The position numbers and the translations under genes were made by a program. This document shows, in pieces, positions 11,059 through 19,578 of a stretch of DNA of 21,792 nt. The stretch spans positions 1-21,792 of IMG/VR virus record IMGVR_UViG_3300021964_000632; one strand, 5' to 3'. Every line of letters begins with the position of its first letter. Positions within the stretch are counted from its first letter, which is position 1. The stretch is from a virus. The notes below the pieces were generated by a model. That model was not told the DNA's origin. It saw only the letters and a program-made list of their open reading frames with translations, and ran no database searches.

Positions 11059-12162
11059 ATGTCACTAATAACACAAACAGCCAGAGAATATTACGAAGGA
11101 CATCAGTTATTTACGGGAGATGGTTCTACAGTAGATTTTATATTAACATTTACACCATTACCTTCTGCAGAATCTCAATTTAGGGTATTTATAAATGGGG
11201 ATGAACTTGATAATGATCTTCATTCATATAATAATTCTACAGGCGTTGTAACTTTTACAACAGCTCCAGCAAATAATGCTGCTATAAAAATACTATTAGA
11301 CTCTCCTAATACAGGAAATTATAGATATATTTCTTTAAACGATATAGTAAATAATTTTATAATTTCATATATAGGTGATGGAAAAATAATAGATCATGCA
11401 AGAAAACAAGATGTTTTATTTCATACAAAAAGAGCAATTCAAGAGTTTAGTTATGATATAACAAGAGTAGAAAAAATACAAGAGGTGCAAATACCGTCTA
11501 CACTAGTGGTGCCAATGCCTCAAGATTATGTTAATTATGTAAAACTTTCTTGGATAGATGATAATGGGTTAGAAAGAATTATATACCCTACAAATCAAAC
11601 ATCAAGGCCCTCTCAATCAATACTACAGGACTCACAAGGCGATTATTTATATGACAATGATAATTCTTTATTGTTAGGCACTTCAGAAACATCAAGATTA
11701 TTTCAAGGAATTGAAACAAATGCTGCTTTAGGAACAGCAAGCGCTAATGATTATTTTACACATAATTCTGATTATAGCGACAGCATAATAGGATATGGAA
11801 AAAGATATGGTAGTAGTCCCGAACATTTACAAGTAAACGGGGTGTTTGTACATGATGAAGCAAATGGCCAATTTGGATTTAGTAGCAATTTAGCAGAAAA
11901 AATATTAACTATTCATTATGTATCTGACGGGTTAGGTACAGATGCAGAAATGCAAATACATAAATTAGCGGAAGAAGCTTTATATAAATATGTTGCGTAC
12001 GCTATTTTAACAACTAAATCAAATGTTCCTGAATATATTGTTAATAGATATAAAAGAGAAAGAAGGGCTGCAATGCGAAACGCAAAACTTAGATTATCAA
12101 ATATTAAATTAAGAGAGCTTACTCAAATAATGAGAGGTAAATCTAAACAGATAAAACACTAA
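11059..12162 (+). CDS. Head-tail adaptor / tail tubular protein A-like protein with an inserted beta module
   Basis: A 367-residue protein. The core resembles adaptor proteins of marine podovirus-like phages: 'YRYISLNDIVNNFIISYIGD' (about 88-107), 'DVLFHTKRAIQEFSYDITRV', 'MPQDYVNYVKLSWIDDNG', and a basic helical end with 'RRAAMRNAKLRLSNIKLREL'. It should sit between portal ring and nozzle. Between the N-terminal 'TAREYYEGHQ' and the core lies an extra ~68-residue domain (17-84: 'LFTGDGSTVDFILTF ... VVTFTTAPANNAAIKILL') that recurs in the next two genes. The start follows the previous stop by three bases; the leader has no Shine-Dalgarno sequence. Confidence 0.75.
   Translation: MSLITQTAREYYEGHQLFTGDGSTVDFILTFTPLPSAESQFRVFINGDELDNDLHSYNNSTGVVTFTTAPANNAAIKILLDSPNTGNYRYISLNDIVNNFIISYIGDGKIIDHARKQDVLFHTKRAIQEFSYDITRVEKIQEVQIPSTLVVPMPQDYVNYVKLSWIDDNGLERIIYPTNQTSRPSQSILQDSQGDYLYDNDNSLLLGTSETSRLFQGIETNAALGTASANDYFTHNSDYSDSIIGYGKRYGSSPEHLQVNGVFVHDEANGQFGFSSNLAEKILTIHYVSDGLGTDAEMQIHKLAEEALYKYVAYAILTTKSNVPEYIVNRYKRERRAAMRNAKLRLSNIKLRELTQIMRGKSKQIKH
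11107..11310 (+). repeat. Beta module copy 1 (in the adaptor gene)
   Basis: Residues 17-84 follow the pattern F-x-G-D-G-x(4)-F-x-L-x-F, then F-x-V-F-I-N-x-x-E-L, then Y-N-x(3)-G-V-V-T-F-x-x-A-P-A, ending in an I-x-I-L-L strand. At DNA level 11260-11273 (ACAGCTCCAGCAAA) is identical to 13534-13547 in copy 2. Confidence 0.75.
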
Positions 12163-12165
12163 TAA

Positions 12166-15100
12166 ATGCCTGAAATCAAAAACAATTTCCTAAAAGGGAA
12201 AATGAATAAGGACCTTGATGACAGATTATTGCCACCAGGAGAATATAGAGATGCGCAAAATATTGAAGTTTTAAAAACAGACGGTTCTAATGTTGGTGTT
12301 TTACAAAACGCAGCAGGAAATTCATTAGCCCATGCAGCTTTAAATTTATCTACAGATATTGACGTTATAGGTACATATTTTGATGAAAAAAACAAACGTA
12401 TATATTGGTTTTTAACTGATAATAATGATTTATATGAAAATGATTGGTATATAAATTCTGCGTTAAACCAAAATAGATTTCATGCTATATATTATTATGA
12501 CGCTGATCCTTCGAGTAATACTTACAAAACCGCAAAAGAAATTGTTGGTGGTAGCTTTTTAAAATTTAGTAAAAAATATAAAATTACAGGTATTGCTATG
12601 ATTGATGATTTATTGTTTTGGACAGACAATAAAAATCAACCAAGGCGTATAAATGTTGTAAAAGCTATTTCAAATCCTTCGTTTTATGATAATGAATTAA
12701 AAATTAGTTTAGCTAAATACGCGCCATATATTGCTCCCATTTTAATGACAGACACGGGCATTGCGGGGACTTCAACAATGACTAATGATACTAACATTGA
12801 TAATGACTACATTGAGGAAGAATTTGTACGTTTTTCATATAGGTTTAAATTTAATGATAATGAATATTCTGTGCTAGCTCCTTTTTCTCAAATAGCATTT
12901 AAACATTCATATAAATCGGGAAGTGAATACGGTGAATTTGACGAAGCTGCAGAAATTAGAGCTTATGAGTCAACTGAATTAGATGGAATGATTAATAATA
13001 CTAATAAGGTTATTATTGGTGTTGAGTTACCCTCTATAAATCCTAATGCGGATTTTGAAATAAAAGAAATTGAATTTATAATTAAAGAATCTGATAGTAC
13101 TGTTGCAAGAGTATTAGAAACAAAAACTTTAACAGATGCTAATATCTCATCCACTTTTTATAATTACACTTATAAATCAGATACCCCTCAAAACGCTTTA
13201 CCTGAAGACCAAATAACTAGGGTTTTTGATAATGTACCTACAAAGGCAAAAGCTTTAGATATAGTTGGAAATAGATTAGTATTTGGTAATTATTCTCAAA
13301 ATATTGAAATACCTACATTAGATTATAATGTTTCATATGGGGCAAAAGGAACACAAACTTTTACTGGTGATGCTATAGAAACCGAATTTACTTTAACAAT
13401 AAAATCGCCTGTTACTCCAGATCAAAATTTAATACCAAATAATACCAATCAATTTAACATATATATAAATGATATACTTTTAGCAAGCACAGAATATGGG
13501 TATGATGGTACGACAGGTGTTATTACTTTTAACACAGCTCCAGCAAACGGGGCTGTAATTACAGTTGTATTAGCAAATCATGAATATCCTGATAGCTCTT
13601 TAAAGCAAAGACGTACATATCAAGTAGGAGTTTTACTTGCAGATATATTTGGAAGACAATCCCCAGTATTATTACCCACAACAGTTTCAGACAGTATCAT
13701 TACTGTGCCAGCAAGAGGTACAGCTGCAGAATTCAATAGTTGGATTGGTGACAATTTAAAAATTACTTTTAATGCTCAAAATGGTAAATTAATTCCTGAC
13801 GATAATGTTTATTCAAATGAATTATCTAGTGGTATATATGCAACATATAATCCTTATGGTTGGTATTCTTATAAAATAGTTGTTAAGCAATTAGAGCAAG
13901 ATTATTATAATATTTATGCGCCTGGAGCAACAGTAGTTGATAACAATTCATACATAACTTTATTTGGAGATAATATTAATAAAGTGCCAAGATTATTGGA
14001 AACAATAGGTGAAACTGCAATCGCAAAATCAGATGTGTTATTATATCCTAAAATAATAAACACAGCTTTTTACACAACAACAACATCAACAACAGGAACA
14101 AGAAGTGCGGCAACAGGGGGTACAACCACAACAACCTCAGCTATGATTTATTCTTGTAACCAATATCAAATATTTAACAGGGATACAAACAGCGCAAGAA
14201 CATTTACGTACGTTCCTTGTAATAGTACTATCGCTAGTGCGGGGGATCTTGTTTCTTCCGCTGTTAGTGTTTCATTAGCAGCCGGTAAAAAACAAAAAAT
14301 ATGGTCTTTAACATTTCCAGAATTAAACGCTAATGCTGACGTAGGATTTTTAGAAATTACTCAATTAACTTTTAATAAAGTACAAGATGCCAACGCAGCC
14401 ACAGGTTATTCTGAAATAGAATTTACAGATCCTTCTTCAGGCCAAATAATAAAAACTATTGAGTTTAATTCAGTAAAATTAGCGCAGAGTTTAGTAGATA
14501 TTGATGAAATACCAATATTAGGTATAGGTAAATTATCTGATTTTAATTCTATAGCTATAGATACAATTCAAGAATTTACTAGAAGTTCACAAGTATATGA
14601 TGATGCAGGTGGTCCTTTTTATCAAAGCCAAAATAATCATTTGATTGCTCAATTGCCGCCTTATGATATAACCTCAAATAGATCTGATGCGTTAGGAGTT
14701 AGAATGTTATTTACTGATGATACCGCAACCGATAATACTGTAAAACCAGATTTATCTGTTACTTCGTATATAAAAAGAGGTAAATATATTGATTTAGCTG
14801 TATTTGAAACTTTACCTGTAGAAAGTACAATTGATATATTTTATGAAACATCTACTTCTGGAAAAATTAATGAATTAAATGCTTTAGAAACAGGTGAATT
14901 TACACCAGCAAATGTTACAATATCAGATTTTGCTGTTGCTCAAGACGGTGAAATAACAGCACCATCAATAAATGTAGGCTCATTACAATCTGTTGAATAT
15001 GTAAACGCGGTCCCAAATGCCGGGGCAGATACTAATTTTACATATTTTAGAGTTAGTACTAATACAAATAGAGTAGCTAAATTAATAATTACAGCTCCTA

Positions 15101-17823
15101 ATGGATATACAAATGCAGGTACAAATATAATTATTTCAACTACTGTAGTTCAAACAGCTACGCCTGGATTAAATACTACTGTGCCATTATTTTCTGATTT
15201 ATCTTTAGTTTCAACAATTGCTACAAGCGGAACAGACGCTTCATTAGAAGTTTCGGCAACAATTAGTAATAATGGTAATGCTACAGTTACAGAAAGAGGG
15301 TTTAAAATTGGAACAACTAATGTTTACGCTAATGCAGAAAATATTCCAGATCTAAGCGGAGGTATAGGAACATATACAGCCACTAAAACAGACGCAACTA
15401 TAAACACTTTGTATTATATATGGGCATGGGCAACAAATTCAGTAGGAACAAATGTACAAGGCCCTATTGAAGTAACAACACCTGAATTAGGTGAATTTAC
15501 AGCTGCAGAATGGACAGGAACAATTAGTGTTGATTCATCTGGTGCTGTAACAACTGTTGTAGGTAATTCACCAGAAGTTTTATACGCAGGGACAGTTTCT
15601 CCAAATCCAAGTTCTACAGATACCGTTCAAGTAACATTAGGTAAAGCAGATGGTGATGCGGCAACTTATGGTAATAATAATAATACAATAAGAATTCAAG
15701 TTCCTACATCAGGATATTCAAATTCAGGTGCAAATGAATATTTATATACAGCTGTAAAAACAGTAACACAACCAGCTTCAACAGGAGGAACTTATACAAT
15801 AGCACAGCATGCTGTTCCAAGCGGGTTCAGTATTTCTCCTACAGGAGTATTTACGCTAGGCACGATTCAACAAGGCACTTCTTTAAATAGTGTTTCGTTA
15901 AACGGAAATCTTTTAGCTGATGGTCAATCTACGAATATTTCTGTTGTAAATTCAGCCACACTTAGAACATTAACTTTAAATATAACGCCAGGCGCGCCCT
16001 TTACAAATCCTTTAGCGGCTGATTTTACATTTAATATTGTACAACCAAGTAGAGAAGTAGCAAGTACGGGGGTACCTAGCCAATCAACTGTAATAAATTC
16101 AACACAAACTATTGACTTAAGAAATTATTATAGTAATACTTCAGGTAAGTTTTTTGAAATTACATCTAATAATGCAACAGGCTCTTTAATTAGCGCTTCT
16201 ATTGTAAATAATTATCAGCTACAGCTTATAGGGCAAGGTTCGTGTACCGATATATCAGGTACAACTTCAGCAGGAAGTATTGTAATAAAAGCAAATAATG
16301 AAAAAGCTGTAACGGATGGTAGTGTTGCTGGAAGTACAGCAGCAGTGTCTCCCACAGAAGCAGGAACAGATTCATTTTCCGAAACAGTTAATTTATCAGT
16401 AACAGCCTGTGCATCACCAACAGCTAGTCTAACAATGTCTTATAACTCAGGAGGATCTACCCTCGCATCAGGAGTTTCATTATCAAGTGCTTCTTCAAAA
16501 ACTTATACATATAATACTTCAGATATAGGAAATTCATTTACAAACCAAATGCAGTTTACTTTTACTCATGCAAGCGTAAACTTAACATCTGGAATGATTT
16601 CATTTGTAAATCCGACAGGGGGTTTTTCATATGTAGTAACAGAAAATGGTGATAATAGTATAACAATAGGTTTTAGCGGAACAAATCCAAATCAATCTGC
16701 AAATAATAATATTAATTATTCTTTTGATATAAATATTAATACATCTGTAAATTATATATCAGCTATACAGCTAAACATGGTAAACGCTGGATATAATATT
16801 TCAGGAAATGGAATATTAAGTGTATCAGGAGCATCAACTAATAATCAGCTTCAAATGGATAGTAAAACCATAACAGCCACTAATAACGGTGTTTTTACTG
16901 CAAATCCAACAATATATTATAGCAATCAAACACCTAGTGGAAGTAATTATATACATGTGACTTCTCATACTTCAGCTAACCCTTTTGTTATAACCCAACC
17001 TTCCGCTAATGGAAATAATAGCTTTACAATTACAGGTACATCTAAAATATTAAATGGAGATACAAGCGGATATGCAAATGTAGTGTTAGTTCCAAATACG
17101 GGGGTTACAAATACTGTTACAGCTATTAAAATTCATGGAATACAAGTAAATTCCGGACAAACAGGATATCATTATTCAGCAAATCCTATTGCTGGCCAAG
17201 CTAATACTACAATTGATTTTTCTATAGTAGGAACTGGAGATATTAGTGTAGCCGTTTCAAATGTTAGTTTAGGGGGTTCAGTTGCAAATTTAAGCAGAAC
17301 TACTGGGTATGGTAATTTTAGCGGAACTGTTACTATAGGGACAGCGGCTTCAAGTGGTACCTTTACATTAACCGCTACGCCAACAGGAGGCACAGCATAT
17401 AGCATAACGGTGCAACATGTGCGAGTAACAGATGGTGGTACTTCTGGTATAAGGGGATATTATATTGATAAATCAAATGGGCAGGCTTCGCCTGGTGCAA
17501 CACAATCTGATGGCTACCCAGCAATTTGTGATTTGAATTATGGTAATGATCAAATATATAGCTCTTCATCAAATTATAATGTAGGAGATACTTTTTATAC
17601 AACAGACGAAGCCGCTTACGTGGTTAAACAAGGCCAAACAATTCAACAAGGAGAAGTTTGGCAAGGAGGAAATTTATATTATAAAGTACGCCGTATATAT
17701 TTTTACACCGGCAGTAATGTTTATATACCATCAGGAAGTCAAACATTTTATGTGCAAATAGACAATAATGGTCAAATTGTTACTCCAGGGCAAGTAAGCT
17801 GTGGATTAAATCATGCTTTTTAA
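12166..17823 (+). CDS. Giant tail (nozzle-type) protein, N-terminal half, with C-terminal Ig/BACON-like domains
   Basis: A 1885-residue virion protein, the largest gene here. Residues 1-~390 ('EIKNNFLKGKMNKDLDDRL', 'DAQNIEVLKTDGSNVGVLQN', 'RIYWFLTDNND', 'LLFWTDNKNQPRRINVVKA') match a nozzle/stabilisation protein family of marine phages, analogous in position to T7 gp12 with beta-propeller-like strands. A beta module occupies about 398-469. Residues about 470-905 continue the core, ending in 'AVFETLPVESTIDIFYETST'. From about 908 to 1760 come Ser/Thr/Asn/Gly-rich Ig-like domains, then a C-terminal domain bracketed by C1788 and C1879. The usual C-terminal half of the family is found instead in the next gene, so the protein appears split. 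Thr-rich low complexity lies at about 637-660. It is probably exposed on the tail and contacts the host surface. Confidence 0.8.
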   Translation: MPEIKNNFLKGKMNKDLDDRLLPPGEYRDAQNIEVLKTDGSNVGVLQNAAGNSLAHAALNLSTDIDVIGTYFDEKNKRIYWFLTDNNDLYENDWYINSALNQNRFHAIYYYDADPSSNTYKTAKEIVGGSFLKFSKKYKITGIAMIDDLLFWTDNKNQPRRINVVKAISNPSFYDNELKISLAKYAPYIAPILMTDTGIAGTSTMTNDTNIDNDYIEEEFVRFSYRFKFNDNEYSVLAPFSQIAFKHSYKSGSEYGEFDEAAEIRAYESTELDGMINNTNKVIIGVELPSINPNADFEIKEIEFIIKESDSTVARVLETKTLTDANISSTFYNYTYKSDTPQNALPEDQITRVFDNVPTKAKALDIVGNRLVFGNYSQNIEIPTLDYNVSYGAKGTQTFTGDAIETEFTLTIKSPVTPDQNLIPNNTNQFNIYINDILLASTEYGYDGTTGVITFNTAPANGAVITVVLANHEYPDSSLKQRRTYQVGVLLADIFGRQSPVLLPTTVSDSIITVPARGTAAEFNSWIGDNLKITFNAQNGKLIPDDNVYSNELSSGIYATYNPYGWYSYKIVVKQLEQDYYNIYAPGATVVDNNSYITLFGDNINKVPRLLETIGETAIAKSDVLLYPKIINTAFYTTTTSTTGTRSAATGGTTTTTSAMIYSCNQYQIFNRDTNSARTFTYVPCNSTIASAGDLVSSAVSVSLAAGKKQKIWSLTFPELNANADVGFLEITQLTFNKVQDANAATGYSEIEFTDPSSGQIIKTIEFNSVKLAQSLVDIDEIPILGIGKLSDFNSIAIDTIQEFTRSSQVYDDAGGPFYQSQNNHLIAQLPPYDITSNRSDALGVRMLFTDDTATDNTVKPDLSVTSYIKRGKYIDLAVFETLPVESTIDIFYETSTSGKINELNALETGEFTPANVTISDFAVAQDGEITAPSINVGSLQSVEYVNAVPNAGADTNFTYFRVSTNTNRVAKLIITAPNGYTNAGTNIIISTTVVQTATPGLNTTVPLFSDLSLVSTIATSGTDASLEVSATISNNGNATVTERGFKIGTTNVYANAENIPDLSGGIGTYTATKTDATINTLYYIWAWATNSVGTNVQGPIEVTTPELGEFTAAEWTGTISVDSSGAVTTVVGNSPEVLYAGTVSPNPSSTDTVQVTLGKADGDAATYGNNNNTIRIQVPTSGYSNSGANEYLYTAVKTVTQPASTGGTYTIAQHAVPSGFSISPTGVFTLGTIQQGTSLNSVSLNGNLLADGQSTNISVVNSATLRTLTLNITPGAPFTNPLAADFTFNIVQPSREVASTGVPSQSTVINSTQTIDLRNYYSNTSGKFFEITSNNATGSLISASIVNNYQLQLIGQGSCTDISGTTSAGSIVIKANNEKAVTDGSVAGSTAAVSPTEAGTDSFSETVNLSVTACASPTASLTMSYNSGGSTLASGVSLSSASSKTYTYNTSDIGNSFTNQMQFTFTHASVNLTSGMISFVNPTGGFSYVVTENGDNSITIGFSGTNPNQSANNNINYSFDININTSVNYISAIQLNMVNAGYNISGNGILSVSGASTNNQLQMDSKTITATNNGVFTANPTIYYSNQTPSGSNYIHVTSHTSANPFVITQPSANGNNSFTITGTSKILNGDTSGYANVVLVPNTGVTNTVTAIKIHGIQVNSGQTGYHYSANPIAGQANTTIDFSIVGTGDISVAVSNVSLGGSVANLSRTTGYGNFSGTVTIGTAASSGTFTLTATPTGGTAYSITVQHVRVTDGGTSGIRGYYIDKSNGQASPGATQSDGYPAICDLNYGNDQIYSSSSNYNVGDTFYTTDEAAYVVKQGQTIQQGEVWQGGNLYYKVRRIYFYTGSNVYIPSGSQTFYVQIDNNGQIVTPGQVSCGLNHAF
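13357..13572 (+). repeat. Beta module copy 2 (in the giant tail gene)
   Basis: Residues about 398-469 contain 'TFTGDAIETEFTLTI', 'NQFNIYINDILLAS', 'YGYDGTTGVITFNTAPANGA' and 'VITVVL', the same order of strands as copy 1. It shares a 14-base identity with copy 1 and sits between 'NVSYGAKGT' and 'RRTYQVGVLLADIFGR' of the nozzle core. Confidence 0.75.
14071..14147 (+). repeat. Thr-rich low-complexity tract (ACA-type codons)
   Basis: Near-repeats of ACA/TCA/ACC codons encode runs of threonine broken by Ser, Gly and Ala (TTTTSTTGT, then TTTTTSA; residues about 637-660 of the giant tail protein). It is probably a flexible, exposed loop or linker. The trinucleotide character makes it prone to in-frame length change. 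Confidence 0.65.
14887..17450 (+). repeat. Ig-like, FN3-like and BACON-like domain array
   Basis: Residues 908-1000 and 1106-1203 are two copies of one ~95-residue domain: both begin 'GEFT-A', both carry a 'P-(N/T)-(G)-Y-x-N-(A/S)-G-x-N' turn, and both end in V-x-Q/T-Q before a Pro/Thr linker. Between them, 1003-1105 has the Bacteroidota FN3-like signature 'ERGFKIGT ... YYIWAWATNSVGTN ... VTTPE'. Residues about 1204-1295 and a segment ending at about 1612 ('FVITQPS') also end in (V/I)-x-Q-P, as BACON-type domains do. The rest (to ~1760) is Ser/Thr/Asn-rich beta sequence without clear units. Confidence 0.65.
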
Positions 17824-17853
17824 TAATACATAAAAAAACGTAATAATAAAACT

Positions 17854-19578
17854 ATGAGTGTAACATTAGAAATAAAATACTTTAATACCTTTGTTATAAA
17901 GAGTTCGGAGGTTACACATCAAGTAGTTGGAACTGGTGATGGAGCCACAGCTTCATTTATTATTGCAGAGTTAAGTGGTAATACTATATATGCTGTTCCA
18001 AATTCAATTGCAGATTTTCAGGTTTATTTTAATAATGAGCTTCAATCCGCTACAGGGTACGTGTATAAAAATAGAATTCGAGAAATAACTTTTACATCCC
18101 CACCCCCTGCTAATAAAGAAATACTAGTAGTAGTAAAAAACTGGCATATAGAAGAATCAAGAATAAAAGGGTCTTTCAATGGCAAAACTGTTGATTTTGG
18201 AGTACGAGCCTCTATAACAGATCCTGAATATAATGAAGAAACAAGAGAAGCGTCGCTTATATATTCCGGTATATATAATGGGAGAACAAGGACAAATGAA
18301 ATAAACCAATTTAATCCCTCACTTCCAAATACAAAATCAATTGATTCAGCATTTGGTTCAATACAAAAGCTTTACGCAGAAGACAACAACTTAATAGTAT
18401 TTCAAGAAAGCAAAGTAAATAACATACTTATAGATAAAGATATTATTTTTACAGCAGAGGGAGATGCTCAAGTAACAGCGTCTGATCAAGTATTAGGACA
18501 AGTTGTGGCATATACTGGCAATTACGGTATTGGTAAAAATCCTGAAAGTTTTGCCGCTTATGCAGGTAGAAAATATTTTACAGATAAAAACAATGGTAGT
18601 GTTTTAAGATTATCAAGAGACGGTATTACTGAAATATCTAATTATGGAATGCGTGATTATTTTAAATCTAATTTAAAATTAGCAGATACTCTTGTAGGAC
18701 TTTGGGATAACCAAAAGAAAAAATATATTTTGTCTTTACAAGAAACTGATGTTGTAAATACATTTGTTGGCAACGGAAGTGATGTTGCTTTTTCATTAGC
18801 ATTTACTATAATAGATAAAGATTTTAATACTGTTAATTTACCAGACCCAACAAGTATATCACAAATTGAAATATTTACAATAGCCAGTGGGGCAAATGCA
18901 TTAACTGCAAATATTGATTATACATATAATGCGTCTACAAGTGTTGTTACGTTTACAAATGCACCGGCTTCACAGGATACAATAACAGTTTATTTAAGAG
19001 ATTTTGCAGACGGATTTAAAACATTATGTTATGATGAAGAAATAAATGGCTGGAGCTCTTTCTTTACTTATAAACCTATATTTGGAGGAAGTTTAGATGC
19101 AGACTTTTATACATATGCAGAAAGTAATGATTTATACAAACATTATGATTTAACTGCAAATAGAAATTCTTTTTATGGCAATACTTCAAACGCCTCAACA
19201 GTTGAAGTTATTATGAATCAACCGCCTTCAATTAATAAATATTTTAAAACAATTAATTATGAAGGTAGTACAGGTTGGGAAATAACTTCTATGCTAACGG
19301 ATAGCGATATAGCAAAGCCTATTGATGCATATGTAGCAACAAGCGCGGCAGCAGAAAATACATGGCAAGATTTAATTGTATCTGGTTTTAAAAAGAAGAA
19401 CAACAAATACTATTCATCTATAATGAATCAATCTCTTCCAGGAAGAAATGAAATTATTTATGGAGAAGATATATCGGGTATTAAAGGATTTTTTAGTAAA
19501 TTAACACTAAGCATTTCTGACACTGCTCAAAAAGAATTATTTGCGGTATCAAGCGAATACGAACTATTAACAAATTAA
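17854..19578 (+). CDS. Tail nozzle-type protein, C-terminal half, with two inserted beta modules
   Basis: A 574-residue protein. It begins 'MSVTLEIKYFNTFVIKSSEV' and, after a module (22-97), continues 'RIKGSFNGKTVDFGVRASI', 'REASLIYSGIYNGRTRTNEI', 'FGSIQKLYAEDNNLIVFQES', 'VLGQVVAYTGNYGIGKNPES' and 'RKYFTDKNNGSVLRLSRDGI' (to about 285). These are the segments I remember as the C-terminal half of a single marine-phage tail protein whose N-terminal half is the preceding gene. A second module (about 303-384) interrupts it after 'KKYILSLQ'; the core resumes with 'KTLCYDEEINGWSSFFTYKP' and 'YEGSTGWEITS'. The two gene products therefore probably assemble into one nozzle. The start is 30 bases after the previous stop, with an A-rich leader and no Shine-Dalgarno sequence. 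Confidence 0.78.
   Translation: MSVTLEIKYFNTFVIKSSEVTHQVVGTGDGATASFIIAELSGNTIYAVPNSIADFQVYFNNELQSATGYVYKNRIREITFTSPPPANKEILVVVKNWHIEESRIKGSFNGKTVDFGVRASITDPEYNEETREASLIYSGIYNGRTRTNEINQFNPSLPNTKSIDSAFGSIQKLYAEDNNLIVFQESKVNNILIDKDIIFTAEGDAQVTASDQVLGQVVAYTGNYGIGKNPESFAAYAGRKYFTDKNNGSVLRLSRDGITEISNYGMRDYFKSNLKLADTLVGLWDNQKKKYILSLQETDVVNTFVGNGSDVAFSLAFTIIDKDFNTVNLPDPTSISQIEIFTIASGANALTANIDYTYNASTSVVTFTNAPASQDTITVYLRDFADGFKTLCYDEEINGWSSFFTYKPIFGGSLDADFYTYAESNDLYKHYDLTANRNSFYGNTSNASTVEVIMNQPPSINKYFKTINYEGSTGWEITSMLTDSDIAKPIDAYVATSAAAENTWQDLIVSGFKKKNNKYYSSIMNQSLPGRNEIIYGEDISGIKGFFSKLTLSISDTAQKELFAVSSEYELLTN
17917..18144 (+). repeat. Beta module copy 3
   Basis: Residues 22-97: 'GTGDGATASFIIAEL', 'DFQVYFNNELQSA', 'YVYKNRIREITFTSPPPAN' and 'ILVVVKNW'. 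Same strand order as copies 1 and 2 but more diverged (PPPAN in place of APAN), inserted close to the protein's N-terminus. Confidence 0.65.
18760..19005 (+). repeat. Beta module copy 4
   Basis: Residues about 303-384: 'TFVGNGSDVAFSLAFTI', 'QIEIFTIASG', 'DYTYNASTSVVTFTNAPAS' and 'ITVYLRDF'. It has a longer loop between its second and third strands than copy 1 and lies between two conserved segments of the nozzle core. Confidence 0.7.

Follow-up and report, generated by a model that had tools for sequence, protein, structure and literature searches.

Fibre-type beta modules in the ring-like protein and two-chain muzzle of a marine relative of crassviruses

The window, by which we mean the entire stretch of DNA analysed from this virus record, is 21.8 kb in length (21,792 nucleotides) and has 32.6% G+C. 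Its genes are arranged in the order terminase, portal, a 400-aa gene, major capsid protein, a 273-aa gene and a 233-aa ring-like gene, and these are followed by genes for proteins of 367, 1885, 574 and 704 amino acids. The annotated phage records nearest to the window have hosts in Cellulophaga, Flavobacterium, Maribacter and Tenacibaculum, and the 233-aa protein resembles gp34 of crAss001, the R4/R5 ring protein (hhalign 91.6%, E 8e-7). The source phage is a marine, Bacteroidetes-phage-like relative of the crassviruses (gut crAssphages). Nucleotides 2-430 hold the 3' end of a DUF7483 gene that matches one tail-fibre and one virion-protein PHROG; because the window starts inside the end of this gene, the fibre region lies mostly outside it. 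Scans of the window for Rfam families, tRNAs and tandem repeats were all empty. The features of the tail region that are considered here are listed in Table 1.

Table 1. Tail modules, proteins and muzzle elements, with coordinates in the window
Feature	Coordinates	Strand	Remarks
Ring/adaptor-like tail protein, 367 aa	11059..12162	+	core residues 90-355 match phrog_13977
Module copy 1	11107..11310	+	residues 17-84 of 367-aa protein, near N terminus
Muzzle N-terminal half, 1885 aa, long C-terminal extension	12166..17823	+	phrog_14478
Module copy 2	13357..13572	+	residues 398-469 of 1885-aa protein
Conserved strand ETLPVESTIDIFYETSTSG	14806..14862	+	last core element before muzzle break
Thr/Ser/Gly/Asn-rich beta-type extension of N-terminal half, 980 residues	14881..17820	+	
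Gene break	17821..17853	+	two in-frame TAA stops and short spacer
Muzzle C-terminal half, 574 aa	17854..19578	+	propeller/nozzle core and crAss_MUZ_C
Module copy 3	17917..18144	+	residues 22-97 of 574-aa protein
Module copy 4	18760..19005	+	residues 303-384 of 574-aa protein

The 367-aa gene is located directly upstream of the muzzle, as is gp43 in crAss001, and this gene order fits R1. Its core gives no profile match to the crAss001 ring proteins R1, R2 and R3/4 with hhalign or Pfam, and we use the term ring-like, which reflects gene order and motif order only.

One crassvirus-type muzzle is encoded in two halves, the 1885-aa and the 574-aa protein. Each of them matches phrog_14478, at different positions (1-385 and 916-1152), and the 574-aa protein carries the domain crAss_MUZ_C (PF25729) with a score of 31.9 bits, above the cut-off of 27. 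The main crAss_MUZ domain (PF25731) is not matched at E<=1 by either half, and phi38:1 likewise fails to match it. The phicrAss001 muzzle (7qol/7qok) is the top match both for the AF2 model of residues 1-660 of the N-terminal half (mean pLDDT 68; E 3.5e-9) and for that of the whole 574-aa protein (75.9; Foldseek E 1.2e-13), and the latter model also matches the nozzles of T7, SU10, P22-type tails and many podophages. Profile comparison places the N-terminal half on residues 7-177 of the phicrAss001 muzzle protein gp44 (hhalign, 96%) and the C-terminal half on residues 1055-1333. PDB sequence searches with single proteins or muzzle profiles yielded nothing useful. The first-pass annotation had assigned the modules to three adjacent tail genes; their description as connector- and nozzle-type neighbours stands, whereas their number must be revised to two structures, given that the second and third genes form one muzzle.

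The split site is a loop of the muzzle core, and 47 of the 78 related rows have their break in this same loop. In unsplit relatives the chain passes directly from 'ETxPxExxLDIYYET' to 'xIxYFN...ESxI', and the second muzzle gene of the window begins 'MSVTLEIKYFN' in the same reading frame as the first. A contig error or stop readthrough at the break was rejected on the grounds that two TAA codons separate the halves, that TAA ends nearly all genes in the window and that so many relatives are split alike. In the tree of C-terminal-half cores, 47 rows are split and 31 are fused, with at least two changes between these states, and the nearest neighbours of the window (L053-L055 and L079) are fused. 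One fission followed by one re-fusion, or two fissions, both fit this tree.

The extension that precedes the break matches no Pfam or PHROG family. It is the fastest-evolving part, with 53-82% identity and many indels, and it carries 'F.I.QPS'-like motifs. In the Maribacter phage Panino the annotated frame breaks inside the same muzzle core (MC), which reflects either biology or a sequencing frameshift. A second kind of muzzle break is seen in four unsplit relatives (L023, L033, L040, L042), where a small separate ORF downstream of the main gene encodes the end of the muzzle C-terminal domain. No earlier description of a split muzzle was found in a literature search that was not exhaustive.

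The four modules, which are about 65-80 residues in size, had been proposed to be copies of one common domain, and their homology is confirmed. All four segments are in frame at the coordinates first given for them. Local alignment scores of the module pairs range from 61 to 128, compared with shuffle maxima of 43-58, and in 1000 shuffles per pair the real score was never reached for any pair. When a profile is built from any three copies and run against the window's own frames, the held-out copy is recovered with i-E values of 6.7e-15 (copy 1), 2.4e-13 (copy 2), 1.7e-9 (copy 3) and 9.5e-10 (copy 4), and nothing else in these frames scores below 0.08. The proposal that the modules fold alike holds for copies 2-4, which have an identical strand order in AlphaFold models. 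The modelled strands lie at residues 396-400, 407-409, 430-434, 444-447, 452-455 and 464-469 for copy 2, and at 300-305, 312-314, 338-342, 356-359, 364-367 and 376-381 for copy 4.

Each module is a real insertion that interrupts a conserved core at a hairpin or loop. Copy 1 sits between 'REYYE' and 'GNYRYISL' of the ring-like protein, and copy 2 is a clean insertion in the alignment, in the loop before strand RRTYQVGVVLAD ('RRTYQVGV'). Copy 3 is found between strands LEIKYFNTFVIK ('YFNTFVIK') and 'WHIEESRI', and copy 4 occupies the hairpin between 'KKYILSLQ' and 'TLCYDEEINGW', near residue 1199 of gp44. Module-free relatives align straight through every insertion point, in agreement with the initial remark that the cores read continuously on both sides. 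The idea that the modules are ancestral core elements is ruled out by relatives that do not have them. Copy 1, for example, is absent from all six annotated records (phi38:1, phi13:2, elemoF, Gundel_1, Panino and ctfjg026), in which the ring-like core starts at residue 21-27.

Presence and absence were scored across 122 related loci on cores only, because modules cross-match when whole proteins are used. Copy 1, the older one, is widespread in a marine clade and is present in most ring-like genes of L003-L082. In contrast, copies 2-4 are confined to the window's clade of about 10 genomes, and one change on the tree suffices for the distribution of copy 4. A relative of a different muzzle lineage carries the module at a fifth muzzle site, in another loop (L017:12618-12845), and this copy arose independently. 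Beta inserts unrelated to the module occupy the copy 4 loop in L075 and L078 and nearby loops in L093 and L073. In the ring tree the window groups with L022/L023/L016-L018 and in the muzzle tree with L053-L055. This disagreement indicates a mosaic tail whose junction lies close to the boundary between the two genes (11059-12162 / 12166-19578).

A 14-mer, ACAGCTCCAGCAAA, that copies 1 and 2 share exactly was the reason given in the first-pass annotation for a rather recent duplication. The 14-mer does occur twice, and these copies are about 41% identical in protein. However, in the tree of modules across genomes the copies cluster by position and not by genome. Each position forms its own supported clade (support is weakest for copy 2), which indicates that the copies diverged before these genomes did; the trees comprise about 70 columns, and resolve the deep branching order of the four positions poorly. 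In addition, the 14-mer encodes TAPA and part of the next codon, and the chance that two TAPA motifs agree is about 0.02-0.035 given local codon use, making codon coincidence its explanation. It is not common to copies 1 and 2 of relatives that are 95% identical (L004, L005, L008, L007). It is therefore very improbable that one module was recently duplicated from one gene of this phage into its neighbour, and the recent age is refuted, although an ancient copy 1 may be the ancestor of copies 2-4.

The modules evolve faster than the cores. When the more distant clade members are compared, module dN is approximately 2-2.5 times that of the cores; dS is near saturation in these pairs and exact ratios are soft. 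Within each clade, module dN/dS is well below 1.

The module belongs to a type of beta domain that is common in phages, the DUF4183 / DUF2460 C-half / T7-fibre N-terminal type, with which it shares the pattern GDG...F.L / V.NG / TGVITF..AP / I.V. Among 65 ring/muzzle module copies used for family matching, DUF2460 is matched by 42, DUF4183 (PF13799) by 14 (best E 2.4e-5) and Phage_T7_tail (PF03906) by 11 (E<=0.01, best 8.8e-6). The window proteins score 14.2, 20.8 and 24.7 bits with DUF2460 (PF09343), which is below the cut-off of 30.4, and only its C-terminal half is aligned. A direct comparison of the module with residues 14-67 of T7 gp17 gave a weak match (i-E 0.0026). The module also matches tail-fibre and virion-protein PHROG families, and the AF2 model of the N-terminal muzzle half matches tail chains of HRP29 and Kp7 over about 88 columns, which probably correspond to copy 2, the fold search having given no residue map. 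Antibody light chains swamped the results of a PDB search with the module profile, and a tblastn search of named phages with the module consensus found no match.

Module copies are also found in long tail-fibre-like genes on longer records from the same or related clades (L139, L140, L141, L142 and L143). Those in L142 and L143 form tandem pairs and score 42.8 and 28.2 with DUF4183, above the cut-off of 25.1, and one module-bearing fibre gene ends in the fibre chaperone Peptidase_S74. In the tree, fibre copies and ring/muzzle copies fall on opposite sides of one branch (support 99/97). Whereas the Phage_T7_tail domain is a terminal fibre anchor, the modules of the window are internal to ring and muzzle cores.

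The muzzle of phicrAss001, gp44, for which structures are available (7qok/7qol; Bayfield 2023, PMC10172136), resembles that of the window in having an N-terminal ring-joining/propeller region, an Ig-type region, a propeller and crAss_MUZ_C, and in being encoded directly downstream of a ring gene. The window's muzzle differs in that it is made from two genes, which are separated within a core loop after the 980-residue extension, and in that it contains three inserted fibre-type modules that gp44 does not have. Closer relatives, namely phi38:1, the Flavobacterium elemovirus and Panino, share the gene order and have homologous ring-like and muzzle cores, but carry no module in ring or muzzle, and the muzzle cores of phi38:1 and elemoF are in one gene rather than two. 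The nearest published parallel to a split muzzle with inserted domains is found in phi29-like phages of Gram-negative hosts, in which the tail knob gene is split in two and has acquired an Ig-like domain insertion (PMC11476376). These Ig-like domains are predicted to be lateral on the tail (PMC11476376). However, the knob is an unrelated tail protein whose inserted domains are in the knob only, whereas those of the window are also in the ring-like protein.

Most probably, the modules are optional fibre-type beta domains that were inserted into loops of tail-core proteins and act as exposed contact domains, and we infer that they face outwards from the tail tube and tip. Published observations lead us to consider exposed contact: T7 fibres are seated in a groove between adaptor and nozzle (PMC6702177), the phicrAss001 muzzle tip is thought to touch the cell, with length variants that stem from inserts in its crass and IG2 regions (PMC10172136), and Ig-like domains have been added to the cell-contact role of the muzzle tip in a review (PMC10136315). 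Appendage docking, proposed at first from the sequence, is plausible in that tail-fibre domains and fibre anchor domains of the T7 type are among the nearest relatives of the module. The modules probably dock neighbouring subunits or tail fibres and so stabilise the tail, with docking as the first role and weak adhesion to the cell surface as a possible second one. The muzzle itself is probably a gated, cell-contacting nozzle as described for phicrAss001, wherein the two chains would rejoin across the broken loop and leave the long distal extension free as a tip appendage.

There is some opportunity for other functions. The modules might be carbohydrate-binding domains whose weak affinity for glycans lets the tail tip roll on or stick to capsule or exopolysaccharide, given that surface carbohydrates are the presumed ligands of phage Ig-like domains (discussed in PMC11476376), that 31 of the 65 copies match one PHROG annotated as glycoside hydrolase, and that the modules are the faster-evolving parts. 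Yet the conserved positions appear to form glycine turns, a hydrophobic core and the 'TGVITF..AP' motif rather than an exposed aromatic patch, and family searches matched no carbohydrate-binding family, so we regard this function as unlikely. A similarly low likelihood is given to the modules being neutral structural filler, i.e. beta domains that are tolerated in loops and spread by recombination with no shared job. Such filler could account for the unrelated beta inserts in the same or nearby loops of four relatives and for the lack of copies 2-4 in most relatives, but every copy is kept across its clade with dN/dS well below 1, and it is one family, not a random mix, that is found at three muzzle sites and in the ring.

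The reading of the modules as exposed contact domains can be extended to a history of the tail, which we offer as a doubtful but specific proposal for a large marine clade of crassvirus-type phages. Gene fission immediately after a loop insertion in the muzzle would have freed the insert as a C-terminal appendage of the tip, giving rise to the two-chain muzzle. In one lineage, the two muzzle halves and the ring next to them would have gained matched fibre-type modules, letting ring, muzzle and fibres recognise each other by way of a single domain type.

The domain type is common; what is new is its repeated addition to tail core proteins together with a two-chain muzzle, and the split, despite the precedent in phi29-like phages, is more notable than the modules. 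The locus shows remodelling of a conserved tail-tip machine, wherein fibre-type domains enter core loops of ring and muzzle, and a gene break behind the largest insert gives this insert a free C-terminal end. As both split and unsplit relatives are numerous, the route of this remodelling is testable. The split also explains why muzzle genes of marine relatives can be missed, or can be annotated as two unrelated structural proteins.
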